Shown here one piece after another: positions 2,805 through 58,380 of a stretch of DNA of 64,000 nt. The DNA is from Narthecium ossifragum. Lineage: Eukaryota; Streptophyta; Magnoliopsida; Dioscoreales; Nartheciaceae. The number at the start of each line of letters is the position of its first letter. Positions within the stretch are counted from its first letter, which is position 1. The stretch is from contig OY986967.1 of the NCBI GenBank assembly GCA_963920575.1, forward strand, positions 9,294,061 through 9,358,060. Reading direction: 5' to 3'. Position numbers and translations under genes: made by a program. Below the pieces are notes generated by a model that had not been told where the DNA came from, did not search any database, and saw only the letters and a program-made list of their open reading frames with translations.

Positions 2805-3082
2805 GAGATCGATTTTCTTACCCAAGAAGATCGATATTCTATCTACGTGCACTCTGTCAAGGAAGAGATCGATCTTCCCTCATAAGACGATTGATCTTCC
2901 TTAAGAGAGCATTCTGTCTAGGGAAAAAGGGGATCAATCTTCCTTCTCAAGAAGATCGATCTTCCCCAAGAGAGCGATCTATCTGGGGAAAAAGGGATCA
3001 GTCTTCCAGCGTCCTCTATCAAGGAAGAGATCGATCTTCTTCAGACGAGGCTAAACACCAACAAACAAGAGATTGATCTTTC
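2805..3082. repeat. Palindrome array, GAAGATCGATCTTC dialect
   Basis: About ten copies of a palindrome with core GATCGATC and mostly AAG/CTT flanks. Several show single transitions in the CpG (GATTGATC, GATCAATC), the expected decay of methylated CpG. The array lies downstream of the LTR's TATA box in the element's transcription direction, so in R/U5. Links between units repeat phrases such as CAAGAGAG and CAAGGAAGAG. Confidence 0.85.
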
Positions 3083-3530
3083 ATACTTCCGCTGATACAA
3101 TGAATAGTGCTGAAAATCAAATTTGTTGGATTCGATCTATCAAACCAATTCAAATCAAACCAAACTTTGGAGGGATGTGTAATGGATAGTGGGGAACCAA
3201 ATGACACTAAGAAATCCAAGTTCCGACGAGTAAATTTCAGATCCAAGCTAAAATAGCCGAAAATTGATGAAAATCGACGAGAAATACATAACACTCCAAT
3301 AAATATAAACACATCAAAACCATATAAAACCAATTCTAGGTAAACCAATCCGTAGGAATTGGGTAGAAACACCTACAAGTATGGACGTGGAGGCGATGTA
3401 CAAGATTGTCCACTCCGATCGTAGCAGATCCGGGCCAAAACACCGCAACCCAAGCAGCAACTAGCAGTCAAGGGGAGAGAGAGAAAGAGAGAAAAAGAAA
3501 GAGAAGGGAAGAGAGAGAAAAGAGAAAGGG

Positions 3531-3540
3531 TATTTATAGA
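3531..3540 (-). promoter_or_regulatory. TATA box of LTR A
   Basis: TCTATAAATA on the minus strand, about 285 bp inside the LTR start. A long purine tract on the plus strand (pyrimidine-rich in the transcript) follows, as is common just after the start site of plant LTRs. Confidence 0.6.
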
Positions 3541-4774
3541 GATCTGAAACGATCTCAGCTGTCTGATTCGATCTTTCCCGATTGAGCTCCAATCTTCCTA
3601 TCAGAAGCACCCCTAAGGTTCTAATCAATTACATTCATCAATCCAATGTAGTGTGTGTATAACGCGGGTGTAAAACTGACCATTAAGGCGTAATTTTACC
3701 AAATTGCTCCTATAGTCCAAAATGCCAATACGATCACCCAATCGTACCCGACGCGGAACCAAACCAACAAGAAAATGACTTTCGACCTACGCGGTCGAGC
3801 CAGGTTAGAGGAGCGGGTCCTCACAAGTACAATCAATCTCAATACAAGAAACTCTCAACCCAAAACCCAGATTTCAATCTCTCCCAGATCCCTCCTGGTC
3901 CGCACATCTGGCCGGCCTCCTCCTTATATAGAGTAGAAGTCCGGATCTTCCTTGATAGGGAAGTTTCCTTGTCCAACTCCAACTCTGAGACCTTGATTGA
4001 CTCCATGTTGATCGGGACTCTGACTTTGGTCAATCATGAAGCTGCCCACTTCATCTGGACTCCTTGTTGTGCTTAGACTTGCCTTGGATAGCACTTGCCA
4101 AAATCCACCAAGACTACTTGACATGAAATAGGTCTCCTTTCTTTTTCCGCGCGTCAAATCCGGAATCTTCCGTGCCATCTTCCATCTTTGCCTCATCATG
4201 TCTTGCCAAAGATCTAAACCAAGTGGAAGTTGATCATTTGCACTCTCGGATTGGCCCCTATGGGCAACCACGTCATCCTGGTCGCGTCATGGTGAGCCGA
4301 GTCTAGTTCGAATAGGACTTCTAGTGCAACTCGAATTTCGTCGGTGCCAAAACTCTTTATCTCCCATGCCATGACATATAGAGTCATAGTGGAGCAAGGA
4401 ATTGGAGTCCTAGTAGAACTCGGGCTCCTAGTGGCAATCGGACTTCCGTCAACACCATGTTGTGTCGAACGCCATGTGCCTTGGCGCGCGCGTCTCGCCG
4501 GCAAGCGCGCGTGTGCGCCCGCCTAGCGCGTCGTGCTCCGCGTGCCGCTCACCTGACCCGTGCCATGGCGCATCAAGTGTCGATTTTGGCCTGGTCCTCT
4601 GTGCCATCTTCTTGCCTTTTCACGCCATCTCCAAAATTCACCGCACCAAGTTGGTGATGATGCGTGCCGCTCCTGTTTGGCTTGCTATCTTGAGACCTCT
4701 TAATCTCTCATGACCCCAAGGCGCCGACCCCGCGCGCCAAGGCCTGTGTCATGGGCTCAAGGCGTTCACACTTA

Positions 4775-5603: not shown

Positions 5604-5606
5604 TTA

Positions 5607-7325: not shown

Positions 7326-7334
7326 CTCGGTGTC

Positions 7335-7340: not shown

Positions 7341-10206
7341 AGACCCACGACCCTCCCCTGTTTTCCTTTTTCTTCTTCCTTCTTCTTTTCTCCTTTGATT
7401 TGTGAAGTGGAGCTGTTGTAGAGGCTTGGGAGGCTTGCCAAGAGGTAGGGGAGCTCATCTACACAGTTTAATTGAAAATTAAACGTGGATTTATTTTAGT
7501 AAGGTAGGATTTGTTATTAAGCTTGCTTTTGATGTTCTATGTTGATTACTTTCTTTTTTTTCAATTAAAGTATGCTAGCTGATGTGTTTTAGGTTTCTTA
7601 ACACCAGATTGGTGTTTGGTAGGATTTGGCTTTGAATTGATATGGATTTAAGCAAGTTTTGATCATGTTAATTTTTGGATTTCTGGTTTAATTCGAAGAG
7701 TATTGTTCTAACATGATTTCCGAGCTATACGTACATGATCTCAGTTGATTTTCTATATGAAAGTTGTATATCTCTGAGTTATCTTTTAACTACAACTGGT
7801 TTCATGATTTTTGGGTCTATGTACGCATTTTGGTGAATTAAATGGGCAGTCTGTGCTAAAACAGGATAGTTGGTTTAATTTGTGAAATTAATTGGTTTTT
7901 AGTTATTTACTTGAGTTGATTTTTTGCTGAGATGATCCTAGCGATATTTAGGTGTGATCTGTAGAGTTTATTTTCAATCCAAGTTATTTTCCAAAGGATT
8001 TTGATCGGTGTATAAAATCTGGATTTTTACCGAAATTGTAGTTTTTCATCTACTCCTGTCAATATGATCGATCCAATTTTTGGATATGTGATTCGGGCTA
8101 TGCCATTCAGTGGGCATATAAAGTTTCATATCGATTGTACGGCTAGATTGAAAGATATGATTTTTCGAGCTTAGTAATCTAATTGGTTTGATTTTGATAA
8201 ATCGATTAGTTTTAATCTTATTTCAGATATATGTTATTTTATCTGTGTAAGCTCGTGTGTAGCTTGTGGTTGAACCAGGGGAGTCACGGCCCCCTAGGAT
8301 ATTCAGAATAAACGAGCCTTAAGTATGCCCTCAGCTTTGATTAAAATATTATTATATTACTGTCACAGCTGTTTGATCGTTTAGCCGGGGTTGTATCATG
8401 TGTTGTAGGCCTGAGTACCTATTTATCTGCTTTATCTAGACCCTTGCTATGTGCACCCTTGGTGAGCTGTGTGTTGTACCTAGTCCTGTATAATACTTGG
8501 CATATTGTTGCATGCCTGAACTCTTATATGTGCACATGATCATACATGAATTGTTTGCACTAGATGCATTCCTAGGTTAGGCGTGGGCGATGGGTTAATC
8601 GTCGATTTGGGGACTCGGGCAACTCAGATCTAGCCTTAGGATCGAGGTTGGGTAGCAAGGTCTAGGATTTAATCTGTTGTAATAAATACGATGATTTGAG
8701 GTTAATGTCTAGTCGGCTGCAGTTATATTGATTGAGGTGTATAGGTCGTCCTAGGTTCTAGGCTCAGTCTCAATTTCTTCGTTAGAGGGAATTACGTATC
8801 GCTCTGGGTTCTATCCCTGTTGTTTCAGCGCCGGTGCGATTCGTAGAGAGGGACGACTGTTGATGGTACCAGAGGTCATCAGCGTGCGTGCCCTGGGGTA
8901 GGTGGTGTACGTGTCGCGCCCTGACCCGCAAAAGCCCAATCGGGCCGGGCGACGCGAACCGAAACCTAACAAAAGGAGGAAAATTTTGGCGAGGGTTCCC
9001 TCTAACCTATTGGTCTCCCTAAACAGTTCATCAAAACACCCTCAACTTAAAAAACTATAATTTAACAAAACCTCGAACCCAAGATTAACAAGTCCAAAAG
9101 AATTTAATATACATATCATCGGAGAGGGGAAGATCAAGTACAACATTATACTCTCATAGGAGGCTAACTAAGAAAGGTTTAAAGCAGTAAAGGATCGCCA
9201 CTTCTCAGACTCCGCCTGGCACCGCCGACCAACTGCCCGGTAGGGGCCACCGAAGAGGAGCTACCGCCTGCATTTGCAAAACGCAGCCCGGGTAGGAGTT
9301 AGCAACTAAGCTCAACAGGGAAACTACACTATGACACACAGAAGGAAGAGGGAAACGCAACAGTGTCTCCCTCAAGTAGGACCTGGGTGTATACAGAGGT
9401 TCCACAACCCCATCGCATGTCCCTGAGGTCCACGATCATAGTCTTCCAGAAGAACTGGTCACATGATGGGTCACACTCAGTAAGCAGGAACCAACAATGC
9501 TGACTCACAAGCAGGGAACCGGCACTGCTGGCGGGAAATGGCACCGATGAACAGACAACCCCTCTACTCAAGAGTCATCACAGTGGGACACCGGCTATAC
9601 CTCAGAATCCGACTCGAGGCCGACACGACCTCTATAATCATCAAGCAACAGGTGTACCAGTCATCTAGGCCTATCATCGAATTTGACTGTACACCACAAT
9701 TCAAACCTGGTCCAAACGAGCCGACCCCAGTCCTAGGGCTAAATCCGAGCTTCCAAGCCTTGGGACGGTGACCCACAGATCGCCCACGCCCTAACCATGC
9801 AACTAATGCACAATAGAGATGCATGCGATGAACATGCACATATATGCAGTTAAGCATGCAGCAGGATGTGAACATCTATTTAAGGTCTGGAACTGCTGTA
9901 GTGGTACACCACCAATTGCTAGCTAGTTCACCAGCAACCTGTATCGGGAAGCAGCCCCGCAAACAACAGGAGACAAACCACACAGGTATAGGCCCTCAAC
10001 GCACACCGGCATGCAAGGCTATTGAAAGCAGTAGGGCTACTCGCCCACTTATTCTAAACATCCCAGGAGTCATCACTCTCTTGGTTCACTACTACTCCTA
10101 ATATGGGGCTAGCATTCTTGCTTAAGGATATGTACAAGGTATAAAGCTGTAAGAAATATGTACATACAAAGCCTCGCGGGCAAAGCCAATAGAAAACTCC
10201 TCTCTG

Positions 10207-10476
10207 CCACTAAAGGATCAATCTTTTCCTCCAAGTAACAGAGAGGCCCCCTTCCTGTCGAGCCAAAAAAGATCGATCTTTCCTCCCAGGAAGATCGATC
10301 ATCCTCGCGACAGAGGACACCCTACTCGTAGCGCCAAGGAAGATCGATCCTCCTCGCGACAAGGGCATCCATGCTATCCAAGAACAAAGATCGATCATCT
10401 TCACCAGATGATCGATCATGCTCGGGCTCAGCATGACCAACAATGAAGGATCGATCTTTCTCCAGGAAAGAACGAT
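10207..10476. repeat. Palindrome array in LTR B, transcribed side
   Basis: About nine GATCGATC units with AAG/CTT or ATC/GAT flanks (for example AAGATCGATCTTTCC and AGATGATCGATCATGC), separated by CCTCGCGACA-like links. It lies downstream of the TATA box on the minus strand. Confidence 0.85.
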
Positions 10477-10820
10477 CTTGTTGGGCTCTCCGGCGAACCG
10501 CCGACGAGAAATACCGTCGAAAAACTCTACCAAATCCCACAAAACCTTGGGATTTGGTAGTATGAAGGACCACGAGTCCAAAATCGGTAATAATACAACA
10601 AACTAACCGACATGCATCAAGATCTAAGCAAAAGAAGATCACAAACAACTCAAACTCACAAAACCGAAAAGAAAAACATAGGTAGGATCCCTACCTAGCC
10701 TAGAGCAGCTTCAATCTCAGCTGCAAGGCCATGGATCGTCCCAAATCTCTTCAAAATCCGGCAACTCTGAGCTCAAGAACGCGGATTTCAAAAGGGATTC
10801 AAGGAAGAGAGTTATGTCCG

Positions 10821-10830
10821 TTTTATAGAC
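10821..10830 (-). promoter_or_regulatory. TATA box of LTR B
   Basis: GTCTATAAAA on the minus strand, between the two palindrome arrays of this LTR. Confidence 0.55.
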
Positions 10831-10849
10831 AAATGAACCATCCTATGAA

Positions 10850-10950
10850 TGATCGATCTTTGCCCTGAGGAAAGATCGATCTTTCATGACGATCGCGCCT
10901 TGACTTTCTGCCATTAAAAGATCGATCTTCTAGCAAGAAAAGATCGATCC
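10850..10950. repeat. Second palindrome cluster in LTR B (U3)
   Basis: Two pairs: AATGATCGATCTTTG / AAAGATCGATCTTTC and AAAAGATCGATCTTC / AAAAGATCGATCCC. Units within a pair are about 20-22 bp apart. The cluster lies immediately upstream of the TATA box on the minus strand. Confidence 0.8.
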
Positions 10951-11835
10951 CTTAGGTGCAGAAAACTAGACTTGGGCTAAAACTCAAGCCCAAGCCCGGA
11001 TCTTTCGATTCTGGGTCCACCTAACCTTTCTAATCAAACACTAACACAAACATGGTCAGTGTGTGCACACGCGGGTGTGAAACAAACCAACAAGGCACAA
11101 TTTACCAAATTGCCCTTGCGGTCTACAATGAGTCACAGGGGTAGAGGGACAGGTCCTCACAGTACGTAACGTGTGTTTCCCCTAGAGATGAGATGGAACC
11201 TCAGAATTTACTGTTTGGCTTCTTTTGTGAGTGTCATAGTATAGAATCATGCTGAGCTTATCGTTTACTCCTACCCCGGCTGTGTTTTGCAGGTGTGGGC
11301 GGCAACTCTTCTTCTGTAGCACTTGCTGGACAGACACAAGGTGACACATCCGCTTTTGGAGGAGCTTGAGGACTTGGAGTCCAGTTACTTCTTCTTGGGA
11401 TGATAAATATATAATTTCCTTCTGCAAGGAATTTCAGATAGTTATAATATGATATTTTTGAGGTTTAGTCTTGTACTAGAATCCTGAATTATATTAGAAA
11501 TTTTAATTTTTACCCCAGATCAATTGTTCACTTAGATTTCTTTTTATTATAAATGCGTCTTTGATCGATTGAATAGATTAGGAACCCTCACACCTCAAAC
11601 CGGATAAGTTTTATGAGTCGGGGTGTGACAACGAGATTATGCTCAGTGGTAGGGCTTGAGTATGAGGATGGGATGAGATGGAGCTGGATGAGGAGGAACG
11701 TTGTCTTGTAGAGGTTGTACACGAAGTTTTTATATCCTTTGTTTGATGGAAATTTTGTAACTAAGACAAAATTGTCACGAAATCATCATTGTCTTTTGAC
11801 TCTGATATGGTTAGAGCATTTTGGCCATATCTTTC

Positions 11836-13252: not shown

Positions 13253-16234
13253 CACTTTGCTAGTCCTCGACCAAAGAAAAAATAAATAAGAAAGTAATAA
13301 ATCTAACTAGCCACTTTCGTAGGTCTCATGATTGCACTTAGCATGTGCAACAAGCCTTTAAACCCTGGCTTACCCCAGTGGAGGACTTATAGTCTCCTGA
13401 GAGTTTTCAGGGATGACACCCAGAAACATCTATACAACCATTGAATATATCATTAAAAATCAATCACAATATTCATCAACTCCAATGCATAAAATAGAAA
13501 TCATACCCATGAATTTATTCTTCTATCGATAGCAAGATAAAACAATAGCAAATCAATGGATGCCAAATACATTTCCAACACTTCAACATATTTAACCACA
13601 ATTAAGAACAACTTTAACACCCATGTGTGTGAATAAGATTTAACATGCTCTAGAGCATCAATTATATCTAAACACTTCAACTATTGAAGAATACGAACTT
13701 GGCCAAGTACATGTTTTCATTCACCACTTTGCAATCTTTTTTTTCTCTTTTTTTTCATATATGACATGTGCAACGTTATGATTTCTTAAGTTTTCTTTAT
13801 GGTCCATGTAACGAGGATTCCCAAACCAGACGGCTTTAGGATACTAAGTGTAGAACACTTTTCAGACTCTGATGCTCAAACTATGAAGGATACAAATCAT
13901 AACTAGTAATTTTTTCAGAAATTTCAACTGTTTTACGCGAATAACACACCTTGTTAGGCACCTTACCCATTTACTAAGTATGAAACCCTTTTTGCATATA
14001 AAGCTCTTTTTTTTCAATTGCATACTTTCATGTAACATATCATAAGATCATAAATCTATCATAGTATTCTGCTTAGAATCTAATCTCAACTCATCAACAT
14101 GTGGAAGTGAACATATCCATTAGGATATGTCAAGTTATCCTTAATTCATGACAAAAGTGTTGAAGTATAGATCAATGTCATGCATAGCAAAAATTTAGCT
14201 ATTTCTTATATCACATATGAGAATCAGAGTAAATCATAAAATATATTTCTAAATTAAACATCTTTCATTAATAAATATCATAATTTCATTCTCATGACAT
14301 AGCTCAAGGATGCATAATATCGGTTATCAGAAAAAATAAATATAAGCATGAATTCCTAGAATTCTACCCCCAACTTAAATGTAATTGTCCTTAATTACAC
14401 TAAGTCATAAAAATAAATTGAGGAATAAAGGGTAGAGATAACCATAATGAATGCCCAAAAATTGATTTCTCTCTCTGGCATTAAATATGTTAAACACCGT
14501 CATAATAGAATAAATACCTCCCTCCCAACCATATCCTGCTATAGAAATATGTACATTTCCAAAAGATCAAGTATATATCACAGAATATAGCAAATAAAAG
14601 CCCAAAAAGGTACACAAATCAAAGAAAATTTTGGCAGAGCCTCGTTTTTATTTTCATGATATATCAATCATGTACAAGCATTCATCCCATAAAGCAAAAT
14701 AATAAATGCACAGGAGACTGGAAAGGAGATATCATTATGATTATCACATATATCATCGCAACACCAAGTATCAATAAAGACCAACAAAGACCAAAACAAC
14801 CAAAGATTCCCCTAGCATTGGCTAATCTTCATTAGAATCCCTAGAATCAGGCTGTCAAGTGGAAGTAGAGGGGTGGGCCTACTAAGATGGCTAATCTAGC
14901 AAAGCCATGGCGAACCTCTGCCGTCAAGTCATCCGTCGTAGAGTCATTAGCATCTGAAAGTGCAAAAATCAACATAAAGACAGGTCCGGGCTGGTAAAAC
15001 TGGCTCAAGGCTGTGGAACACTACAGTGCAGAGGACTCGTAGACTCCTACCATGAATGCTTCCTAAAGACTACTAATCCTAGGACTCAACGAAAATAGCA
15101 AACAACAACCTTGGATGTAGTAGATGAGATCTGAATAGTCTGGCGACGTACGTGAGTGTGGTCCTGATTGAAAATCTAAACTGCCAGATTCAAAATCGGA
15201 ACTTTGCAGCACCTGGATCCTGATCTGAGAGCAATTGTACGGCTGAAAACTTGCTGGCGATGGATCGACAGTGAAACTTCATCTCCGGAGGACGGAACCG
15301 GTAGGGATAGAGTTGTGGGAGGCCAAGGAGTCTATCTATAAGGTCTGATCCGTGAGTTGTGGTCTCCAGATGGCGGAACGGCGGTGGACGGCTTGGAGGA
15401 AGATGGCCGGAGTTGGAATCCGACGGTCGGAGCTTCAATCGAGGTTGGAAAGGATCGAGGAATGATCGTGAAGGCCTAAGGAACTCACCTACGTTATTTA
15501 ATTACAGAATTGGAGTTCCAGAAGGCGGATAGAAGATGTCCGGTGCAGTGGAGGATCGTCGAAAGTGGAATCCGGCGATCTTAGCTGCAAGCTTGAGTGT
15601 TGAGGATGGAAAAAACATCATGACGGCCAGAGGAAGGTGCTGGAGGTGGCTAGGGGCGGTGGGAGGCAGTGGAAGAGGTGATCAAAGATAGCGAATGAAA
15701 CAGGGGAGGCTTACCGACATCGGAGGAGGTGATTTTAAGGGAAGACGAGGGTTTGAGGAGGTACAAGAGAAAATGACGGTGATGTAGGTGTTGGTTTGGA
15801 GGGACGGGGATGGCCGGAGAGGTGGCGACGGGCGGTGGTCGATGACGAGGGAGGAAGAAGCTGTTGGTATGATCGACCGTGGGAGCGGGGTTTCGTGAGA
15901 AAATAAGCTCACGGTCGATCGCTCGATCGACCGCGAAAAACGTGATTTGTTGAAGAAGGTGACGGTTGATCGACACATCGACCTTGAGAAGCCTTTTAGG
16001 TGACAAAGCCTCATGGACAATCTGGCAGTCGATGGGACGATCGACCGTGGTCCAAAAATTTTCAATTTTTCTAAATATTATGATTATTATCATAGGAAAA
16101 TAAAGGAAAAATATAGGAAAAATAAAAACAAATTCAAAGAAAACTCCTAAAAATTAAAGAAAAATTCTAAGAAGCTAAGAAAAAATCATAAAATTGGGTT
16201 GCCTCCCAGGAAGTGCAAAATTTTACGTCTTTCA
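13253..16234 (-). other. Long 3' UTR of E1, no gene
   Basis: About 3 kb between the ORF stop and the PPT. It has an AT-rich half (13253-15150) and a GC-rich half (about 15190-15870), both recognisable in E2 and in the full Athila element. It contains a hairpin plus second PPT-like tract (14366-14399), an ACGGTCGATC-type array (15885-16045), and the box AGCGAAAGACGTAA just past the ORF stop. I see no env-like reading frame. Confidence 0.6.
15885..16045. repeat. Palindrome array in the E1 3' UTR
   Basis: Inverted half-site pairs CGGTCGATCGCTCGATCGACCG, GACGGTTGATCGACACATCGACC and CAGTCGATGGGACGATCGACCG. It lies just past the ORF, in the position of the 58147-58380 array of the full Athila element, with the same GGTCGA/TCGACC dialect. 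Confidence 0.8.
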
Positions 16235-18160: not shown

Positions 18161-18469
18161 TGTGAGGACCTGCCCCTCCATCCCAGTGGCTTGCTGTTTA
18201 CCCCAAGGGCAATTTGGGAAATTGCGCCTTGGCGGTCGTTTCACACTGGGTGTGCACACACAGACCTTGTTTGGTGCTTGTGTTGTTAGAAAGGTTAGGT
18301 GGACCCTGGTTCGGTAGTCCTGTGCTTGGGCTTGTGTCTCAGCCCAAGGTTTCCGTTTTGGGCAAGGGAGATCGATCTCCATGGGGATGAAGATCGATCT
18401 CTCTGTGCCTAGTGGTCGCCGTTCTGGGCAGGGGAGATCGATCTCCATGGTCATGAAGATCGATCTCTC
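18161..18469 (+). mobile_element. Tekay-type LTR start, truncated by assembly gap
   Basis: Begins TGTGAGGACCTGCCCCTCC and carries the typical family text for 200 bp, then two copies of a 66-bp unit each holding a GGAGATCGATCTCC / GAAGATCGATCTCTC pair 22 bp apart. It ends at the N run. The bases before it (AGTTA) would be its TSD, but the far end is not visible. It interrupts the E1 5' LTR. Confidence 0.7.
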
Positions 18470-20571: not shown

Positions 20572-20586
20572 CACCCCCCAACTTAC
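20572..20586 (-). other. Polypurine tract of E2
   Basis: Minus strand AAGTTGGGGGGTG directly before the LTR, identical in core to the PPT of the Athila element at 60669-60679. Confidence 0.75.
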
Positions 20587-23948: not shown

Positions 23949-23999
23949 AAGTTTGTTCAAAGTCGGGTCAGAGGATATTTGTGGAGGAGGATATTTGTC

Positions 24000-45021: not shown

Positions 45022-45490
45022 GTACTGCCGGTCGTTGAATGGATCGACCTCGGGAATGCGACGGTCGATCCATGGATCGACCATGGGGTTACACGGTGGA
45101 TGCACCAAACTTGGGCAAATCAAATGTTGGCTCGCGGTCGATTTAGGCATCGACCTAGCCTCACGGTCGTTGCGGCGGTCGATGCACGGATCGACTGTGG
45201 AGTTTGTTTGTGATCTATATACTTTGGCTAAGTGTTGGCTTGAAGGGTAATTGTTTTTAATTATTGTATGCTCACTGACGATCTGGTGGTCGATGCATGG
45301 ATCGACCGCGAACAATGTTGACTCAAGTGAAGAAGCGACGGTCGATCGGAGCATCGACCCTGAGAAGCATTTTTCACAACAGAGGCTCATGGTCGATCTG
45401 GCAGTCGATGGGTGGATCGACCGCATCTCAAGAAGCCTGAGTTTTGAACCTGGTAGTCGATGTGGCGGACGATGCATGGATCAACTGTCA
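45022..45490. repeat. Inverted half-site array in the Sirevirus LTR (U3)
   Basis: At least seven dyads of the form GGTCGAT(CC/GC)ATGGATCGACC, CGGTCGATTTAGGCATCGACC and CGGTCGATGCACGGATCGACTG, with TCGA-to-TCGA spacing of 13 bp or more. The dialect matches LTR J and the Athila UTRs although the element is copia, not gypsy. Confidence 0.85.
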
Positions 45491-47842: not shown

Positions 47843-48593
47843 TGTCGCACCCCGACCCGCGAAAGCCCAACCGAGCCGGGCGACGCGAACTGAAACCTAA
47901 CGAAATGCGGAAAAAGCTGGAAAGGGTTCCCTCTAACCTATTGGTCTCCCTAACAATTCACCAAAAGCACCCTCAATTAAAAGACATTAATTTAATGAAA
48001 AATCGAATCACAGATTTACAAACCCAAAAAGATTTAATATACATATCCTCGGAGAGGGGAAGATTCAAATACAACATTTATACTCCCGTAGGAGGCTATC
48101 TAACAAAGGATAAAAGCAGTAGATGATCACCACCTCTCAGACTCCGCCTGGCGCCGCCGCACTGCCGACCAACTGCCCGGTAGGGGCCACAGAAGAAGAA
48201 CTGATGCCTGCATCTGCAAAACGCAGCCCGGGTAGGAGTGAGCATAAAGCTCAGTAGGGTTCTATACTACGCCACACAGAAGGAAGAGGAAAACGCAACA
48301 GTGTCGCCCTCAAGCAAAGGCTGAGTGTACACAGAGGCCCCATAACCCCACCGCGTGTCCCTGTAGGGAGGCCTCAGTCATGTCTCCCAGTCGAACTCGT
48401 AACATACTGGGTCGCCCTCAGTGAGGCAGGAAACCAGCACTGCCATCTCACTAGAAGGAAACCAACACTGCTAGGCGGGCAACCAACACCACTGAGTAGG
48501 CACACCCTCTACCCAAGAGACAGTGAACCGGACACCGGCTACACCTCAACACTCGGCTCGAGGCTGACACGACCTCTATAATCACCAAACAAC

Positions 48594-48882
48594 ATGTGTA
48601 CCAGTCATCTAAGCCTATCATCGAGTCGATTGGACACCATAATTCGAACCGGGTCCAAACTACCCAACCCCGGTCCTAGGTCTAAGTCCGAGCTTCCAGC
48701 CTCGGGTCGGTGACCCACAGATCACCCACGCCCTAACCATGTGTACCAGTCATCTAAGCCTATCATCAAGTCGATTGGACACCATAATTCGAACCGGGTC
48801 CAAACTACCCAACCCCGGTCCTAGGTCTAAGTCCGAGCTTCCAGCCTCGGGTCGGTGACCCACAGATCACCCACCCCTAACC
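48594..48882. repeat. 145-bp tandem duplication in LTR D
   Basis: The segment starting ATGTGTACCAGTCATC at 48594 is repeated at 48739 with only a few changes (CATCGAGTC against CATCAAGTC). LTRs B and F have one copy. Confidence 0.9.
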
Positions 48883-50290
48883 ATGCAACTAATGCACAAA
48901 TCAACAATGCATGCTATGAACAAACATAAATAGGAGATAGACATGCAATAGTATGATAAGGCATCGTATAAGTCAACCGGATCGCTGCAGCGGTACTACC
49001 GACCGCTGCCAGCCGATTCGCAGCGGGTCCCGGCATTACGACGGTACCATGACCGTCAATCGCGGACTCCCGCAACAGGAAACAACCCCGAAAACGATGA
49101 TGAACAGTAAAAAATATAATATTATAATCCGACATATAATATTATATTTAAAACACCAAAAGTTCTCTACTAGAGGTTAATTGACCCGTCAATCCGACGT
49201 CGGATTCGAGATCCAACTTAGCCACGAGTAGACCTATATGCCGGGATCAACATATCCAAAATCCAGAAACATCCAACGGCTAGATTAACGAGAAAACACT
49301 AATCAAAACCGCTAATCAAAACTAACTTACCACCTCTTTGCTGCCAGTGCGCAAATCATAACACTTCGTAGGAAAATCGGAAAAATATGACATCAGTTCG
49401 GTTTGAGAGTAGATTCAAAGATCTACACCTCTTAAGTTCATTACAACCCAAGATCATGCACGTACAGGCCGGAAAACTTACCGCGAGCCGACTGTTCTTC
49501 AAGAACAGCAGAAACCGAAAAATCCGAGATTAATCATGCATACATCCTACTTAAATCCCAACCAAAGTTCATGAAACTTATAAACGAAATTATACTAAGC
49601 AAGATGCATCCAACAAGACAAAGATCAACAAGATCCAACGGCTAGATTAAGAGAAACCCATTAAACAACTCTCTTAGGTAGAAAACCTACCGAACTGCGC
49701 TAATCCTCGGCTGATTCCCCGCAAGTCAGTCACCAACAAGGTTCCAAACCACTTCAAGGATCTTCCTCTCGCCGTCACGGATCCAACGAGCTTTGGAACA
49801 CCCAAAACGGTGGCCGGAGGAGGGAGAACGGAGGAGAAGAAGATCGCTGCCGGGAAGAACAGAGGAAAAACAAAACAGCGAGAAGAAGAAAGAAGAAGGA
49901 AGAAGAAGGAAGAAGAAGGAAGACGAAGGGGAAGGAGAAGAGGAAGGAAAAGAGAAGGAGAAAGCCGGGGAAGGTGGGTAAAAGGGGAAGGAGGGGAGGG
50001 AAAGTCCTCCCCATCTGACAGAGGAGAGTGACGGCCAACGGCGGCCGTCCTCGCGAAGGGAAACCCACCGACTCGCTCATGAGTCCGATCGATCGCTACT
50101 AAGAGCGATAGATCGCTCACGGGCCGCCAGCTGCCCAAAAATAAGCTTCTGCGCATCCAAGCTGGGATCTTCCGATCCCGGATCCACCTAACCATTCTAA
50201 TCAAGCACTAACACAAACAAGGTCAGTGTGTGCACACGCGGGTGTGAAACAAACCAACAAGGCGCAATTTACCAAATTGCCCTTGCGGTC

Positions 50291-51724
50291 TGATAAGTCA
50301 CTAAATGTTCATGATTCAACCTCTTAACTTAGCTTTGTTAGGCCTAGAGTGTTTGTATTTGATAGCTTGTTAGTTGATTTCAGGTTTAATCATGCTTTGA
50401 GGAGAAATGCAACAAATTCGGTTAATATGCTGAAATACACTGCTCTGTCGACTGTTAGCATAATATTCACCAGATATTATGCTTATCTTCAAATATTCTG
50501 AAATTTGAATGCCAGCTAATAGACATCAAGACGTACAACTTTCATGTTGAATACTTTCATAGATTCCAGATGGATTGATAGCAGTTTTGGAAAAGATGAA
50601 GATAATTAGCTGTTGGAAGACTGGTCCGTCGACGCCTGGGAGAATATTCGTCAAATATTCTAGTTAAGTCCAAATATTGCAAACTCTTCGGGAGAGGACA
50701 TAGGACTTCCAGAGCTACATCCTTTGTGTTGGACTCATTCTCAAATTCTGAACCGTTTGAGTCCAGTCGCGATTGGAAGGAGCTGTCAGGGTTGGACCAG
50801 GAATTCCGAGTTGTACTTGAGGTCTAACTTAACCCTAAAACCCTAATCCGGGAATTAAGATATAAAAAGGGTTTTGTGGCTGGAAAACGGGAGGCCTCCA
50901 TAGAGAAAAACAGAGGAATTCAGATTGGAGAAGAAGACGGAGATGTGGTTTAGATCTCAAGCTTTCTTCATCGAATACATGGCCTTCATCCCAAAGATGA
51001 GTGGCTAATCTTCTAGATCTAGGGATCTCATGAAACTCTAGTATAACTTTCTGTATTTTCTAGTTGATTCTTGTATTCCTTTCTCATAGACATGATCTTA
51101 TGGATTTGAATTTATTGATAATAGAGTTGATGGAAGTATTTCCCTTGACGTATTTTGTGTCCTACTTGATTGCTGTGCTTGATGGTAGAGTTCCATAAGA
51201 TGATTTTCATGTGGTTTTTGATATGCTTTTGAGATAATCTATGATAAATAAAGATAGATTGTACTCATGTTAAGTCCGAAGACAATCTATGCTACACGAA
51301 GATAGGTTATGCCTTAGGTAGTCATCAACTTTCTTTTAGGGTTTCATTTGAGCTTAAGAAGCCATGATTGCATAATGTCTAGAGAAGAAGCAAGATGATA
51401 ATTAGAGAATACAGGAAGTGAAGCTAGAGTGGATTGAGGGTTCCCTAGGTTGTTTCTCTCATTGATCTATTTCAACCTCTTTAATTGCTTTCGTAATTAG
51501 TTTTAATTAATTAGTTTCCAAAATCCAAATCAACCTTTCATTGCTTTAGGATTAGAGTTTTGAGTTTCAATTTCACCTTTGTTATTCAAGTCAAAGTTTT
51601 CCCTGAGGATCGACCCAGTATTTCATCATTATACTATCGTTTGAATTTAATATTGAAATAAGGGTTTATAAATTTCTAAATTGCGTTTTGCGTACGATTT
51701 AACGACACCGTTCGTGAGCGATCA
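50291..51724 (+). repeat. 5' LTR of the Athila element
   Basis: 1434 bp, ends TGATAAGTCA...GAGCGATCA. TATA box at 50861-50868. No GATCGATC array within the LTR; the arrays are in the UTRs. Confidence 0.95.
50861..50868 (+). promoter_or_regulatory. TATA box of the Athila 5' LTR
   Basis: TATAAAAA, about 570 bp into the LTR. About 30 bp upstream is AACCCTAAAACCCTAA, a telo-box-like motif. Confidence 0.65.
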
Positions 51725-51729
51725 ATTTT

Positions 51730-51747
51730 TGGCGCCGTTGCCGGGGA
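51730..51747 (+). other. Primer binding site, tRNA-Asp type
   Basis: TGGCGCCGTTGCCGGGGA, an exact match to the Athila-type primer site, 5 bp after the LTR end. Confidence 0.9.
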
Positions 51748-51910
51748 AATTTTCTTGATTTACAACGGAGTATCGATTTAATCTTCTTTTAACTCTTTTT
51801 GTGAGCGTAGTTTAATTTTTATTTCTATTTACGTTATTTTACATTTTTAGGATTTTTCTGATAATCATCTGGAATTTTCGCAGTGCTGGAACGATCTTAC
51901 GTTGAAGACC

Positions 51911-52135
51911 ATTGACGGTCGACCGCGACATCGACCGCCAGATCGACCGTCGCCCTCTACGATAGCCACGGTCGACCGCGACATCGACCGCGACATCGTC
52001 CGTGCGTCTCTGTCAAAAATAAAGCCTCCCACGGTCGATACGAGGATCGACCGTCACATGTTCAAAGAAGGTTGCACAGTTCCACGGTCGACCGCGAGCC
52101 ATCCACGGTCGATCGCGAGATCGACCGTGAGCGCA
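51911..52135. repeat. Palindrome array in the Athila 5' UTR
   Basis: Units such as GACGGTCGACCGCGACATCG, CACGGTCGATACGAGGATCGACCGTC and CACGGTCGATCGCGAGATCGACCGTG between PBS and gag. It shares the phrase GTCTCTGTCAAAAATAAA with the 3' UTR array. Confidence 0.9.
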
Positions 52136-52245
52136 TTCAGGTTAGTTTTATTGTTTTAAATTTCTCTCCTTTCAATCTTTGTTTTCCGAATTTTCTCCTC
52201 CTCCGAACATTCTGTTTTCTTTTTCTCTTTATGCTTTGATCTTGC

Positions 52246-55200
52246 ATGCAAGGTAGACGATCCCTGAATAATCCGTTGGAACCTTTGGATCTAGAAATAG
52301 AGACCACACTTCGAACCGCTAGAACCTTAGCACAAAAGTCTCTAAGTAATTACCAGGAAGCCATAACCACCTTGAAATCCTTAATGGCTGAACACGAGGA
52401 ACATGTCATTGATCCTAATAATAATATGGGTAGGGGTGAACATGATCACAATAATAGGGAAGTCCCAATTAGGAATCACTTCCTATCTGGACCTTATACC
52501 TATGCTTCTTGTATCAACCCACCGACCATTAATGCTACCCATTATGAGATTAAGCCTAACTGGATTACAGCCTTACCTTCTTTCTATGGGCGTGAGAATG
52601 AGGACCCTTATGGACACATTGCTAGCTTTCTTGAAATCCTTTCCATGTTCAAACTTCAGCATTTTAATGATGATGCCTTTCGACTCAAGCTCTTCCCTTT
52701 TTCTTTGAAAGACAAGGCTAAACATTGGCTCCAAACTTTAGCGCCAAATTCGATTTCAACATGGGACCAACTTCAGGATGCCTTCCTTAAGAAATACTTC
52801 CCGATCATTAAAACTCAAAATTATCGAACCATGATTATCTCTTTCAAGCAAAATGAAGATGAGATGTTTCATGAAGCTCGGGAAAGATTTAAGGATCTTC
52901 TTAGAGAGTGTCCCCATCATGAGGTACCTGAGTGGCAGTTAGCCCATTTATTTTATAATGGTCTTAATGATCGTTATAGGACAATGGTCGAAGCTTGCTG
53001 CGGAGGTGTTGTTCTTAGTAAGCCATGGACCGCCCTTTGGGAAATGTATGATAATCTTGCTGAAAATTCACAACACAATGCCTCAGTCTCTAGGAGTCGG
53101 TCTACCACTGTTCGTAATTCTCGGGGAATTCATGAAATTTCTGAAGTCCAAAGTCTATCCGCACAAGTAGCCCTCCTAACTAAAGACTTAAACCAGTTGA
53201 AAACAGGCCAATCTCTTGCTCAACAAGCGTCGAATACTTCTCGTGAAATCTGTGCCCTTTGCCTTAATTCTGATCACCATATTACCGATTGTCATCTGGC
53301 CCCCAATTTCCCTGACTTTGTTCAGGAACAAGTTAATGCAACCTATGGTTTTTCCAAACCTCAAAATAACCCTTATTCGAATACCTATAATCCAGGTTGG
53401 AGAAATCATCCTAATTTTAGTTGGAAGCCACAACAATCGAGTAATTTTTCAGGGCAAAGCAACACAACTAACCCTTCTGCTTTTAAGTACCCACCTAAAC
53501 CTTCTGCAAATCCAAATCCTGGGTACCCTCCGCAATCAACTTTAGCCTCTCAAACCCAATCCTCTTCTGAACCAACTTTAAGTGCCCTCCTTTCAGCTAT
53601 GACTGCCATGAATGACAACATCAACTCAAACATTAGTGGCATAAGAAGTGATTTGACAAGTGAAGTCTCTAAAATTCAGAACTATGTTTCTAGAATAGAG
53701 AACCAGTGTAATTCCAATACCCAATCCATTAGTAAACTTGAGAACTCACTGGGCCAACTGTCTAACACTATAGCCAAAAGAGAGGAAGGTCATTTGCCAA
53801 GTCAATCGGTCACAAACCCCAGAGGCCAGCACTATGTAGAAAGCCAAAACTTCGAGAGTGCCAAAGCCGTTGTGACCCTTAGAAGTGGAAAAATAGTAGA
53901 TAACCAAATAGGTGAACCTGTCAATCTGGATGATCAAACACCCGATCCGACAACCAAGCATCCAGCCCAAGATAATTCTCATTTTTCTTCTAATATTGAC
54001 ACATCTGATTCTAGAGAGCCTGATTCAGATAAATATATCCCTAAAGTTCCTTTTCCAGCAGCTCTTAAGGACCCTTCTTCAACCATCAAAGCCCGAAAAA
54101 CTGCCGAAGAAATCCTTGAAACTTTTAAGCAAGTCAACATCAACATTCCGCTGCTTGATGCCATTAGACAGATTCCTTCTTATGCCAAATTTCTTAAGGA
54201 TCTGTGCACCCATAAACGCCAGGCTAAATCCAAAGTGTCTAAAAAGATCTTCCTCACTGAACAGGTTAGTTCTATCTTAAAACATGATACACCTCCCAAA
54301 CTAAAAGATCCTGGTACCCCTACAATACCTTGTTATATAGGAGACTACCATATTGATGGTGCCCTTCTTGATTTAGGTGCCAGTGTGAACCTTATGCCCT
54401 ATTACCTTTATAAAGAGTTTGGGATGGGAGAACTTAAACAGACGCCTGTGATTTTGCAATTAGCTGATAGGTCAATTAAGACACCTAGAGGTATTTTAGA
54501 AGATGTTTTAGTCAAAGTGGATAATTTCTTCTTTCCTGTGGACTTTGTTGTCTTAGACATGGAACCTGCGATCCACTGCAAAAAGACTGTACCTATTATT
54601 CTAGGATGTCCCTTTTTGGCCACAGCTAATGCGTGCATAAATTGTAGAACTGGGGTGATGGATGTTTCCTTTGGACATATGCATGTTAAATTGAATATTT
54701 TTAAAACTGCATGCTTGCCTGAGCCTGACGATGATGAATGCTTTAATGTTGACATTTTAACTGAATGTATTGATGATAGATCACATGCCATGATTTTTGA
54801 TAAATTATCTGGTGGTTTGCATGATTATGACTCTGACAGTGATGATGATGTTAATTTAGAAATTGCACAATCGAAAGATGACATCACAACAAACATCACA
54901 GATACACCGATCGATAGGTTAGATGACCGATCAATCGACCTGGACACAACGAAGCTTGAAACTGTCTCTTGGATGATTGAACCTCTTCCATCTCTCTCAT
55001 CAACTCCTGCGCCGACCTCATTGGAGTCACCACCTGAACTTGAACTTAAACCACTACCTAAAACTCTAAAATATGCTTTCCTTGGACTAAACTCTACTCT
55101 TCCCATTATGATTTCGTCATCCTTGTCTTCTGATAAAGAGAGTCAACTTATTAATGTTCTTAAGGATCATAAGAAAGCAATAGGTTGGACGGTCGCTGAT

Positions 55201-56817
55201 TTGAAAGGTATTGATCCTTCGATTTGTATGCATAAAATTCACTTAGAGGACGAGTCTAAAACTGTTAGGGAAATGCAACGTCGTCTGAATCCGAATATGA
55301 AAGAGGTAGTGAAGAAAGAAGTGGTGAAACTTTTAGATGCCGGTATTATTTATCCAATTTCTGATAGCCAATGGGTCAGTCCTACGCAGGTAGTACCTAA
55401 GAAATCTGGTCTAATCGTAGTAGAAAATGACAAAGGAGAGCAAATCCCGATGCGCCAAACTACGGGATGGCGTGTTTGTATTGACTATCGGAAACTTAAT
55501 GCTCTAACTAGAAAAGATCACTTCCCTCTTCCTTTCATTGATCAAATCTTAGAAAGACTTTCCGGCCAGAGCTATTATTGTTTTCTAGATGGATATTCAG
55601 GGTATAACCAAGTTGCAGTTGATCCTCAAGATCAGGAGAAGACTACTTTTACTTGTCCTTTCAGTACTTTTGCTTATCGTAGGATGCCTTTTGGTCTTTG
55701 TAATGCACCGGCGACATTCCAAAGGCGTATGATGGCCATCTTCTCTGACATGATCGATAAATTTCTTGAAGTCTTTATGGATGATTTTTCGGTGTTTGGA
55801 AATTCTTTTGAATCGTGCTTAGACAATCTCTCTAAAGTTCTTGATCGATGCATTGAAACCAATCTTGTTCTTAGTTGGGAAAAGAGTCACTTCATGGTTC
55901 AAGAAGGAATCGTGTTGGGGCACATTGTTTCCAAACATGGTATAGAGGTCGATAGGGCTAAAGTTGAGTTAATTTCTAAATTACCTCCACCGACTTCTGT
56001 GCGTCAAATCCGCTCTTTTCTAGGTCATGCTGGATTTTACCGCCGCTTCATCAAAGATTTTTCGAAAATTTCTCGACCCTTATGTGAATTACTGGCAAAG
56101 GATGTCCCTTTTGTCTTCAATGATGCGTGTTTGACTGCTTTCAAGACTATTCGTGATTTACTGTCTACCGCACCTATCGTTCACTCACCTGATTATTCCC
56201 TACCTTTTGAGTTAATGTGTGACGCCTCTGATTCAGCTATAGGAGATGTGTTAGGACAGCGAGTAAATAAAGTTTCGCATGTGATTTATTATGCTAGTAA
56301 GACCCTCTCTGAATCGCAATTAAATTATACAACTACTGAGAAGGAGTTATTAGCAGTCATCTTTGCGTTGGAAAAGTTCCGGTCTTATCTCCTAGGTTCT
56401 AAAATCCTTATCTATACTGATCATGCCGCTCTGCGATATCTTTTAGCCAAAAAGGATGCCAAACCTAGACTGATTCGTTGGATCTTGCTTTTGCAAGAAT
56501 TTGATCTAGAAATTAGGGATAAGAAGGGTTCAGAAAATGTAGTTGCTGACCACTTGTCTCGCCTACCCTTGGAACATATTCTTGATGGAACTCCTGTTGA
56601 CACGTCCTTTCCCGATGAGCATCTCTTCCATGTGAACCGTCTTTCGTTGCCTTGGTATGCACATATAGTTAATTTTCTTGTTTCCGACAAGCTTCCTGAT
56701 TCTTGGTCTAAAAATGCCAAAGATAGATTCTTTTCTCAGATCAAATATTATATATGGGAAGACCCTGAGTTATTTAAGCACTGCTCTGATCAAGTTATCC
56801 GTAGGTGTGTGCCCTAG
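52246..56817 (+). CDS. Athila Gag-Pol polyprotein (Gag, protease, RT, RNase H), ends at a premature TAG
   Basis: 1523 codons from ATG 52246. Order: capsid domain (about residues 100-260, HWLQTLAPNSISTWDQLQDA), CCHC zinc knuckle CALCLNSDHHITDC (336-349), a coiled-coil-like stretch (about 460-510), aspartic protease with DLGAS (D709), a linker of about 200 residues, reverse transcriptase with FMDD (D1179, D1180), and RNase H (D1326, E1365, D1392). The FMDD form is usual in Athila. The first start codon lies 110 bp after the 5' UTR array. The frame continues past the TAG at 56815-56817 into integrase, so the stop looks like a single CAG-to-TAG change. The protease-RT linker holds two palindrome units (54908-54940). 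Confidence 0.93.
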   Translation: MQGRRSLNNPLEPLDLEIETTLRTARTLAQKSLSNYQEAITTLKSLMAEHEEHVIDPNNNMGRGEHDHNNREVPIRNHFLSGPYTYASCINPPTINATHYEIKPNWITALPSFYGRENEDPYGHIASFLEILSMFKLQHFNDDAFRLKLFPFSLKDKAKHWLQTLAPNSISTWDQLQDAFLKKYFPIIKTQNYRTMIISFKQNEDEMFHEARERFKDLLRECPHHEVPEWQLAHLFYNGLNDRYRTMVEACCGGVVLSKPWTALWEMYDNLAENSQHNASVSRSRSTTVRNSRGIHEISEVQSLSAQVALLTKDLNQLKTGQSLAQQASNTSREICALCLNSDHHITDCHLAPNFPDFVQEQVNATYGFSKPQNNPYSNTYNPGWRNHPNFSWKPQQSSNFSGQSNTTNPSAFKYPPKPSANPNPGYPPQSTLASQTQSSSEPTLSALLSAMTAMNDNINSNISGIRSDLTSEVSKIQNYVSRIENQCNSNTQSISKLENSLGQLSNTIAKREEGHLPSQSVTNPRGQHYVESQNFESAKAVVTLRSGKIVDNQIGEPVNLDDQTPDPTTKHPAQDNSHFSSNIDTSDSREPDSDKYIPKVPFPAALKDPSSTIKARKTAEEILETFKQVNINIPLLDAIRQIPSYAKFLKDLCTHKRQAKSKVSKKIFLTEQVSSILKHDTPPKLKDPGTPTIPCYIGDYHIDGALLDLGASVNLMPYYLYKEFGMGELKQTPVILQLADRSIKTPRGILEDVLVKVDNFFFPVDFVVLDMEPAIHCKKTVPIILGCPFLATANACINCRTGVMDVSFGHMHVKLNIFKTACLPEPDDDECFNVDILTECIDDRSHAMIFDKLSGGLHDYDSDSDDDVNLEIAQSKDDITTNITDTPIDRLDDRSIDLDTTKLETVSWMIEPLPSLSSTPAPTSLESPPELELKPLPKTLKYAFLGLNSTLPIMISSSLSSDKESQLINVLKDHKKAIGWTVADLKGIDPSICMHKIHLEDESKTVREMQRRLNPNMKEVVKKEVVKLLDAGIIYPISDSQWVSPTQVVPKKSGLIVVENDKGEQIPMRQTTGWRVCIDYRKLNALTRKDHFPLPFIDQILERLSGQSYYCFLDGYSGYNQVAVDPQDQEKTTFTCPFSTFAYRRMPFGLCNAPATFQRRMMAIFSDMIDKFLEVFMDDFSVFGNSFESCLDNLSKVLDRCIETNLVLSWEKSHFMVQEGIVLGHIVSKHGIEVDRAKVELISKLPPPTSVRQIRSFLGHAGFYRRFIKDFSKISRPLCELLAKDVPFVFNDACLTAFKTIRDLLSTAPIVHSPDYSLPFELMCDASDSAIGDVLGQRVNKVSHVIYYASKTLSESQLNYTTTEKELLAVIFALEKFRSYLLGSKILIYTDHAALRYLLAKKDAKPRLIRWILLLQEFDLEIRDKKGSENVVADHLSRLPLEHILDGTPVDTSFPDEHLFHVNRLSLPWYAHIVNFLVSDKLPDSWSKNAKDRFFSQIKYYIWEDPELFKHCSDQVIRRCVP
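54908..54940. repeat. Palindrome pair inside the gag-pol coding region
   Basis: ACCGATCGATAGG and GACCGATCAATCGACC, about 21 bp apart, within the linker between protease and RT; translated as PIDRLDDRSIDL. The dialect and spacing match the non-coding arrays. Confidence 0.75.
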
Positions 56818-57948
56818 TCTGAAGTCCATGATATTCTCACTTTCTGTCATACTCATGCATGTGGTGGTCATTTCTCAGGAAAGAACACTGCTGCAAAGGT
56901 TTTACAAAGTGGATTCTATTGGCCTACGATTTTTAAGGATGCTCATAATTTTTGCCAATCTTGTATTAGGTGTCAAAAGACTGGAAATATCTCTCGTAGG
57001 AATGAGATGCCGCAAACGCCGATCTTAGTTGCCGATATTTTTGACATTTGGGGCATTGATTTCATGGGTCCGTTTCCACCTTCTTTTGGTTTTCAGTATA
57101 TCCTTGTAGCTGTTGACTACGTGTCTAAATGGGTAGAAGCTATAGCAACCAAGTCGAATGATCATAAAGTTGTGGTTAAATTTCTGCAAAGTAATATCTT
57201 TTCTCGATTTGGGTGCTCTCGTGCAATTATTAGTGATGGTGGTTCTCATTTCAATAATCAACATTTTGCTTCCCTTCTTAGAAAGTACTCTATTACTCAT
57301 AAGATAGCCACCCCTTATCATCCTCAGACCAGTAGTCAAGTAGAACTTTCTAATAGGGAAATAAAGCGTATTTTAGAGAAAACCGTTCGCATTGACCGCA
57401 CAGATTGGGCCATAAAGCTAGATGATGCACTGTGGGCTTACAGGACTGCTTATAAAACGCCTATCGGTATGTCCCCATATCGATTAGTTTTTGGTAAGCC
57501 TTGTCATTTACCTGTTGAATTGGAGCATCGGGCTATGTGGGCCATTAAAAAGCTTAATACTGATATCAATGCCGCCACAACACATAGGAAGCTTAGTTTA
57601 TGTGAACTTGAGGAAATTCGTAATGATGCATATTTGAATTCCAAGACCTATAAAGACAAAACAAAAGCTTTTCATGATAAACACATTTCGAGAAGGACTT
57701 TTGTTGTGGGGCAGAAAGTGTGGCTTTTCAATGCCAAATTATGCCTTTTTCCTGGTAAATTACGGTCTAGATGGTCCGGGCCTTTTATCATAAATAACGT
57801 ATTCACGCATGGTGCAGTAGAAATCCGCAATCCACACACGAATGAGATTTTCACTGTTAATGGGCACAGATCAAAGCATTATGTCGAGGACATCGTTCAT
57901 GGTGAGGTTATCCAGTCCGTCGAGTTGACGGATCCATGCTTTAAGTGA
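56818..57948 (+). pseudogene. Athila integrase, separated from Gag-Pol by one stop
   Basis: 377 codons in the same frame as Gag-Pol, downstream of the TAG at 56815. It has the HHCC zinc-binding module (H near 56848, CQSC...CQ before 57000) and a DDE core with D in GIDFMG (57058-57060), D in IISDGG (57235-57237) and E in VELSNRE (57343-57345); 35 residues separate the second D and the E. A C-terminal domain ends at VELTDPCFK. All catalytic residues are present. It is functional only if the stop is bypassed or supplied in trans. No chromodomain. Confidence 0.9.
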
Positions 57949-58146
57949 TCCTTTTATGGACGTCGAGCGAAAGACGTAAAATTACGCGCTTTTTAGGAGG
58001 CAACCCAGTTTTATAATTTTTCCTTAGCTTTTTAGAATTGTTTTGATTTCTAGGAATTTTTCCATGATTTTTTCAATTTTTCCTTTATTTTCCGTGATTT
58101 TTCTTTAAGAATAATCATAATATCTATAAAATCAAATTTCCTGGAG

Positions 58147-58380
58147 GACGGTCGACCGCCACATCGACCGCCAGAGCGTCCGTGCGGCTCTGTCAAAAAT
58201 AAATCTTCTCAGGGTCGATAGAAGGATCGACCGTCAGCTCCTCAAACACGTAACGTGGGTCACGGTCGATCGATCGATCGACCGTCCGTTTATTTTTTCC
58301 AAATTGCTTGGTTGACGGTCGATCGATCGATCGACCGTCTGATTTTGTTCTCAAGTCACCCGCGCCCACGGTCGATCCGA
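58147..58380. repeat. Palindrome array in the Athila 3' UTR
   Basis: Includes a 24-bp perfect palindrome at 58262-58285 and a 26-bp perfect palindrome at 58314-58339, both ACGGTC(GATC)nGACCGT in form, plus half-site dyads. It repeats the phrase GGCTCTGTCAAAAATAAA from the 5' UTR array. Confidence 0.95.

Follow-up and report, generated by a model that had tools for sequence, protein, structure and literature searches.

Arrays of short palindromes in the long terminal repeats (LTRs) of plant retrotransposons are already known. According to the available portion of Bousios et al. (2010; PMC2829016), 13 Sirevirus families carry palindromic repeated motifs (RMs), in 8-32 copies per element, before the TATA box and, in nine of the families, also before ENV; a regulatory role was proposed for them, and they were called Sirevirus-specific as compared to classic retrotransposons. 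A 64-kb stretch of contig C5 of Narthecium ossifragum, analysed here over its whole length (the window), is rich in nested LTR retrotransposons and carries arrays of comparable build; the genome comprises 379.4 Mb in 150 contigs. The arrays consist either of GATCGATC cores (G type) or of GGTCGA/TCGACC half-sites (C type). Like the RMs in that portion of the source, they are multi-copy arrays of short palindromes situated in the LTR upstream of TATA (H, L, T1 and L020) and/or before a possible ENV (L020), where L-numbered names (L013, L014, L015, L020 etc.) denote stretches of the same genome outside the window, and the other labels are given in Table 1. The RM CGGTCGACCG listed there for Vitis is the C-type palindrome found here, and ACAATCGATTGT, listed for Tnd-1, shares the ATCGAT core with the G type. 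The preliminary description of the window, which knew of no described feature of this kind, is corrected by these published arrays upstream of TATA and ENV.

As compared to what the same text describes, the present arrays differ in occurring also in Ty3/gypsy chromovirus and Athila-like elements, in combining the palindromes with a second motif, in favouring certain spacings and in sharing a cassette between two superfamilies. The CGG-CCG signature is present in the C type (CGGTCGACCG) and absent from many G-type arrays, Tnd-1 being a published exception to it. No publication on arrays of this kind in Ty3/gypsy elements was found among the matches listed, in a search that left most subscription papers outside; three features look new, namely the spread to Ty3/gypsy, a composite grammar in which certain distances are preferred, and the copia-gypsy cassette. 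In the accessible part of PMC10760457, a hairpin-forming maize palindrome, CACCGGACNNNGTCCGGTG, is common to copia (Sirevirus) elements and Helitrons; it resembles the present case as one palindrome across unrelated transposable element types in one genome, although its sequence differs. The same part recalls an excess of small RNAs over such maize structures, Ty3 elements being described there as generally without an obvious peak at structured regions. Arrays of VANC target motifs in VANDAL elements have also been described (PMC5735166, PMC10398659). They are similar in their dense, short, non-coding motifs with turnover through tandem repeats, but differ, as far as the consulted sections of PMC5735166 go, in lying in one orientation, in being dense only in VANDAL21 for VANC21, and in having a reader protein encoded by the element. 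Palindromes are reported to be frequent insertion sites of LTR retrotransposons (PMC6911290, in excerpt).

The feature is real and very abundant genome-wide. In the window GATCGATC occurs 66 times as compared to 1.19 expected (Markov-1) and is the top-ranked 8-letter palindrome, and TCGATCGA (12 vs 0.91) and GGTCGACC (8 vs 0.41) also exceed their expectations. A random sample of twenty 10-kb stretches, taken at 1.1-Mb steps along contig C1 and including L020, holds 74 cores against 2.83 expected, with at least one core in 13 of the 20 stretches; when its 8-letter palindromes are ordered by ratio, the AT repeat TATATATA is first and GATCGATC second, only TATATATA and ATATATAT being comparable. 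Genome-wide, 202,613 GATCGATC sites were counted as compared to 8,576 for the same word reversed (CTAGCTAG), and 77,976 doublets 18-26 bp apart as compared to 24 for this control. The window, genome-wide and doublet counts lie so far above expectation and control that chance is rejected as the source of the arrays; the observation made in the preliminary description is confirmed, as are its array positions, with 18 clusters, each holding five or more of the words TCGATC, GATCGA, GGTCGA and TCGACC, between 2807 and 58378. Several counts in this analysis come from a single contig or from stretches chosen for arrays. Within the sample, 58 of the 74 cores lie inside, or at most 400 bp from, palindrome-masked similarity to the LTR and untranslated-region families of the window and L020, which cover 29% of the 200 kb; this count includes L020 itself and one core assigned by its own sequence, and the other 16 cores are unassigned. 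When the palindromes were masked, 51 arrays, drawn from the window, from the random sample and from 13 further stretches chosen for holding arrays, resolved into 32 sequence families.

Chromovirus, Athila-like and Sirevirus-like copia elements all carry arrays, as had been claimed for unrelated lineages, but the Athila-like nature of H, K and L is only putative: the three form one LTR family, and no coding region linking them to Athila was found. The clade names Tekay, Athila and Sirevirus follow the earlier note and the domains rather than a tree, and are presumed to apply here. A chromovirus integrase with an SH3_Tf2-1 region lies on the minus strand at 62223-63764, and in L022 the same integrase, SH3_Tf2-1 (E 1.1e-23) and a weak Chromo match (E 0.0013, under the cut-off) stand directly before an LTR of this kind. 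The LTR starts at 36992 (84%), 18161 (79%) and elsewhere resemble the one at 11161, to which LTR T3 (50301 downward), the 3' LTR of the minus-strand element at 62223-63764, is 90% identical over 147 bp. Both LTRs adjoining an integrase have single GATCGATC cores only, the dense arrays lying in related LTRs. The Athila-like element, with LTRs (50287-51747 and 60676-62102) that are 97.4% alike, encodes gag, protease-like, reverse transcriptase (RVT_1), RNaseH and integrase domains, and has a second copy in L014; the array hosts include, with these chromovirus and RVT_1 elements, non-Sireviruses. The segment 29900-30006 has the same LTR start as the Sirevirus-like LTR at 44907 and adjoins a copia reverse transcriptase fragment. 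In L020, an LTR whose array precedes CTATAAAAGG is followed by a copia reverse transcriptase (RVT_2, E 3e-60), a further array and a PF20167 open reading frame (ORF; E 2e-20), the position of which may be that of ENV. ORFs matching PF20167 (Transposase_32, putative plant transposon protein) occur at 43222-43950 of the window and at L020:4876-6048, beside copia/Sirevirus parts.

The geometry of the G type is regular. Core starts within doublets are 18-23 bp apart, mostly 21-22, the doublets are often repeated at ~72 bp, and pairwise core distances peak near 22, 41, 50, 61, 72, 93, 112, 122, 132-135 and 142-143 bp. As tandem units repeat distances, the gap test was redone once per family: the 61 inter-doublet gaps cluster at 39-42, 47-51, 59-64 and 69-72 bp, with R = 0.45 at 10.5 bp (0.42-0.45 across 10-11), a value unreached in 3,000 uniform draws and optimistic in so far as families may share ancestry. 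A base-by-base comparison is possible for five chromovirus LTRs whose matches extend to a common query end (T1, L015, L021, L024 and L026); their cores stand at 31-32, 53-55, 99-100 and 120-122, not all four in every LTR, and TATA at 151-153 in four of the five despite differing arms. The last core of the T1 U3 array starts 31 bp before TATA (TCTATAAAAC). Other registers are found in L031 (cores at 40/61/83/105) and L020 (61/81/152/172, TATA at 191), and the last core centre lies ~56-67 bp before TATA in the H and L LTRs, the H array preceding CTATAAATA at 29320. In the C type, the start-to-start distance of inverted GGTCGA/TCGACC pairs (n = 153 within 80 bp) is most often 14 bp (44 pairs), followed by 2 bp (26) and 26 bp (12), which places TCGA on a 12-bp grid.

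A second motif, GACAGAG, recurs between the palindromes. TCTGTCA is the most widespread 7-letter word there, being present in 9 of the 32 families as compared to 1.3 expected, followed by CTCTGTC (8), and the scan found no GACAGAG-unrelated word in more than six of the 32 array families. At most 60 bp from palindromes there are 17 sites of ACAGAGAG as compared to 2 elsewhere in the same sequence, and 30 of GACAGAG as compared to 29, which is 7.7-fold by length. Genome-wide and on both strands, GACAGAG followed within 0-30 bases by GATCGATC was counted 6,083 times (3.0% of cores), and the reversed pattern 32 times (0.37%). In G-type arrays the distance from GACAGAG to the next core centre is often 21.5-22.5 bp and in others 31.5-33.5 bp; among 49 distinct matches picked by hand, the gap to GATCGATC is 14-15 in 25 and 24-27 in 14. 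GACAGAG is at a preferred distance from the core, but this is no clean helical turn.

An alignment over ~85-100 bp unites the C-type arrays found in the leader and post-pol region of the Athila-like element, in K, in the 41-kb chromovirus-like LTR and in Sirevirus-like LTRs. The 16 stretches of this cassette were all found by similarity to the Athila-like leader and are gapless except one with a 3-base insertion; columns were counted in 14 lineage-labelled rows, the insertion row and one L019 row being dropped, and the lineage of two L013 rows is given by similarity only. When the palindromes and CTCTGTC are set aside, the identity between lineages amounts to 0.38-0.49, whereas column shuffling gives 0.24-0.26 (z 2.8 to 7.1); TCNCA is identical in all 14 rows, and segments of constant length vary in their letters. 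CTCTGTC and TCYCAGGGTCGAT occur within 30 bp of each other 1,263 times in the genome, as compared to 0 for the control, and among the matches listed (C1) the gap is 12, with varied letters, in all but one row. Convergence alone is insufficient here because letters are shared outside the sites; exchange between elements, by recombination or template switching, with descent and constraint on the blocks would fit the aligned letters best. The suggestion of a motif moving between elements thus gains ground for the C type, with a cassette across copia and gypsy, but not for the GATCGATC type, and the statement that the lineages share no other LTR sequence has to be narrowed: within the window the similarity between the Athila-like, K and Sirevirus-like arrays stops at the array edge, yet inside the cassette it extends beyond the palindromes. 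In the three Sirevirus-like rows the cassette is antisense to the element; it follows the direction of the element in K, in the four Athila-like rows and in those four chromovirus rows for which direction is known, and one dropped L024 row has the other orientation. An orientation-free enhancer may differ between lineages in this way. The leader (51917-52127) and post-pol (58150-58378) arrays are 87.6% alike over 89 bp, and the cassette seems, from this sequence, to have been copied within the Athila-like element.

The most likely reading, to which we assign a probability of about 0.52, is that the arrays are composite promoter/enhancer platforms for one or more dimeric DNA-binding proteins and a GACAGAG-binding partner. 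Each palindrome would be the site of a dimeric protein, presented as the core GATCGATC or as paired half-sites GGTCGAT...ATCGACC, the GATCGATC palindromes being paired into doublets at a distance of about two helical turns, with GACAGAG between them as the site of another protein. An array before TATA would drive LTR transcription, while those in R/U5, the leader and the region before ENV would be enhancers, either downstream or internal. The same code would have been reached by convergence in unrelated retrotransposons and, in the GGTCGA type, by exchange as well. The binding array for a dimeric protein suggested in the preliminary description finds indirect support in the dyad symmetry, the near-helical core spacing, the offsets of the second motif and the register in the five chromovirus LTRs (four with the same TATA). 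A literature search combining GATCGATC with transcription-factor terms gave no pertinent DNA-binding protein among the matches listed.

Several observations weigh against such platforms. The position of arrays before TATA, clear for H, L, T1 and the Sirevirus-like LTR of L020, is not a property of the average core: genome-wide and on both strands, TATAAA lies 15-45 bp downstream of 2.75% of GATCGATC sites as compared to 3.9% of reversed control words, and strict promoter proximity is rejected as a general rule. In some cases hundreds of bases separate TATA from an array further downstream, and the array at 41048-41435 is downstream of a TATA-like word in its LTR. Among 21 matches to the chromovirus LTR start, 16 have a core in the 330 bp read and five have none, and only five of the 16 show a TATA word in the segment read. 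The 12-bp grid of the GGTCGA type makes no clean helical turn, and the two GACAGAG gap modes are 11-12 bp apart, with a concentration of 0.71 at 10.5 and 0.80 at 12; this 11-12-bp step makes the platforms slightly less probable, and hairpins and a mutational origin more so. The arms point the same way. Homologous chromovirus LTRs have quite different arms (e.g. AAGATCGATCTT, GGAGATCGATCTCC and TTCGGATCGATCCGAA), so that symmetry has been retained while the sequence was replaced; such covariation is unneeded by one protein of fixed specificity and favours hairpins or the perfecting of palindromes by template switching. Where pairing of a core's own arms and pairing across a doublet conflict, the latter wins by 62:33 and 63:31 at positions 3 and 4 (109 doublets).

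This brings forward RNA or single-strand DNA hairpins, which we regard as a rather unlikely basis of the arrays, and yet as the best of the alternatives. Doublets in LTR, leader and pre-ENV transcripts would form stems of 8 + 4-5 bp with a ~4-nt loop, serving in RNA processing or genomic-RNA dimerisation or, as a cost, giving rise to small RNAs. The base flanking GATCGATC is complementary in 46 of the 66 window cores as compared to 20.9 expected from the margins, A-T, G-C and C-G all being frequent. With one doublet drawn per family, from the 22 families with such doublets, complementarity of the own arms at positions 1-5 is 0.67, 0.60, 0.42, 0.49 and 0.38 (vs 0.25-0.31) and that of facing arms 0.74, 0.65, 0.62, 0.57 and 0.39 (vs 0.27-0.34); in conflicts counted per family draw, cross pairing leads own pairing by 13.9:5.5 at position 3 and 11.8:8.1 at position 4, with a slight lead at positions 1-2 and near parity at 5-6. 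For 50 arrays (one array containing N was omitted), the best 110-nt stretch folds with a mean z of -5.3 relative to dinucleotide shuffles, z being below -3 in 45 of 50 and the energy below -40 kcal/mol in 38 of 50, as compared to a mean z of -1.3, 6 of 50 and 2 of 50 for random word-free stretches treated in the same way. The RNA hairpins listed among the possible roles in the preliminary description have the folding and the better pairing of facing arms on their side, and maize Sirevirus palindromes attract small RNAs (PMC10760457, in the part available). A stem, however, needs no palindromic core, and hairpins predict neither the near-helical doublet spacing nor the GACAGAG offsets nor the register from core to TATA; of the 14 cassette rows with a lineage label just two, as judged by eye, have a GGTCGAT/ATCGACC stem longer than 7 bp.

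Less probable again is an anti-silencing function, in which a protein of the element or the host would bind the dense non-coding motifs and keep the element hypomethylated, as VANC does. Dense motif arrays of fast turnover, evolving through tandem repeats, match the pattern of VANC targets in the available text of PMC5735166, and arrays do lie in several non-coding regions of one element. The VANC21 array, however, is restricted to VANDAL21, whereas one core serves several lineages here, and the one additional kind of ORF observed next to arrays matches PF20167, a family without a known function, VANC-like proteins not having been searched for.

A mainly mutational origin, with units spread by tandem duplication, palindromes perfected by template switching in hairpins and symmetry as an unselected by-product, appears very unlikely. 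The change of both arms between homologous LTRs and the superior pairing of facing arms fit it, but the excess of one core over other 8-letter palindromes (AT repeats aside) is left unexplained, and so are the core spacing, GACAGAG and the retained non-palindromic blocks of the cassette. The insertion of one satellite-like unit into many elements, which the homology of the GGTCGA cassette across lineages might suggest and which the preliminary description had held as the outcome that would undo it, is rejected for the arrays as a whole and hardly credible, since a single unit is insufficient for 32 families.

If the arrays are regulatory, several unrelated retrotransposon lineages would be controlled by a single sequence code and perhaps by a common set of host proteins. 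We advance only tentatively the wider proposal that copia and Ty3/gypsy elements share a cis-regulatory code of palindrome doublets and GACAGAG, read by the same host factors, that a cassette has passed between the superfamilies, and that one regulator possibly acts on ~200,000 sites. If true, it would provide a handle on the co-expression of distinct elements in the same cells, on the passage of regulatory modules between copia and gypsy, and on the retention of silencing-prone palindromes.

Table 1. Arrays and array-bearing elements of the window (TSD, target-site duplication).
Position	Strand	Feature	Basis
2807-3037		GATCGATC-type array with AAGATCGATCTT arms, some copies decayed; without element assignment	word clusters
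8912-11161	-	chromovirus LTR T1, starting at 11161 with TGTGAGGACC; only right end placed	similarity, structure
10271-10457	-	second array of T1, ~370 bp downstream of TATA, one GACAGAG	word clusters, motif scan
10851-10950	-	U3 array of T1, two doublets, cores at 31/53/99/122 of segment read	LTR comparison
15837-16047	-	GGTCGA-type array and cassette, post-pol region of Athila-like copy	similarity
18161-18469	+	chromovirus LTR start, U3 array GGAGATCGATCTCC (two doublets), then N run	LTR comparison
28533-29340	+	LTR H; array 28904-29257, GACAGAG at 28952 and 29012	LTR comparison, motif scan
33695-33769	-	U3 array of chromovirus LTR T2	LTR comparison
35992-36298	-	GGATCGATCC array, many ~21-bp steps, downstream part of chromovirus LTR starting at 36992	word clusters
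36681-36779	-	U3 array TTCGGATCGATCCGAA/CTCGGATCGATCCGAG of chromovirus LTR starting at 36992	LTR comparison
37236-37586	-	LTR K; GATCGATC cores around GGTCGA-type cassette (37421-37522)	LTR comparison
39076-39487	-	LTR L; GATCGATCGG-type doublets before TATA (CCTATAAATA)	LTR comparison
41048-41435	-	GGTCGA-type array, two cassettes, chromovirus-like LTR starting near 42171	similarity
44907-~46300	+	Sirevirus-type copia LTR, arrays 45042-45195 and 45288-45423	similarity to L020 and 29900-30006
50287-62102	+	Athila-like Ty3/gypsy element, TSD CGGTC, inserted in chromovirus LTR T3	similarity, domains
51917-52127	+	leader array of Athila-like element, GGTCGA type, CTCTGTC inside	word clusters, alignment
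58150-58378	+	post-pol array of Athila-like element, GGTCGA type, two perfect 20-bp palindromes	word clusters, alignment
62103-63764	-	interrupted chromovirus: integrase and SH3_Tf2-1, then first bases of 3' LTR	domains, similarity

Some minor features accompany those of Table 1. A run of 200 N at 18470-18669 immediately follows a chromovirus U3 array, at which the assembly may have failed owing to the repeat, and LTR T3 contains a ~149-bp tandem duplication (48593-48885, 98.7% alike). Many of the listed matches of GATCGATC to TATAAA represent one promoter type, with a gap of 23 and a box like GTCGGTTCGTTTGCC directly before TATAAA (e.g. C1:213439-213475). The LTR pair 19128-20569 and 24019-25460 is 95.6% alike with only ~3.4 kb between; the ORFs at 22640-23014 and 23145-24062, the only two tested inside it, gave no Pfam match, and 19128-25460 is probably a non-autonomous or deleted element. 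Elsewhere in the genome, two sequences are only distantly similar to those of flowering plants: a gag piece has at least 120 matches, those with names coming from many plants, at 36-53% identity among the matches listed, and a PPR gene in L010 is 53% identical to its best match (Stephania) and 51-59% to two Kingdonia matches.

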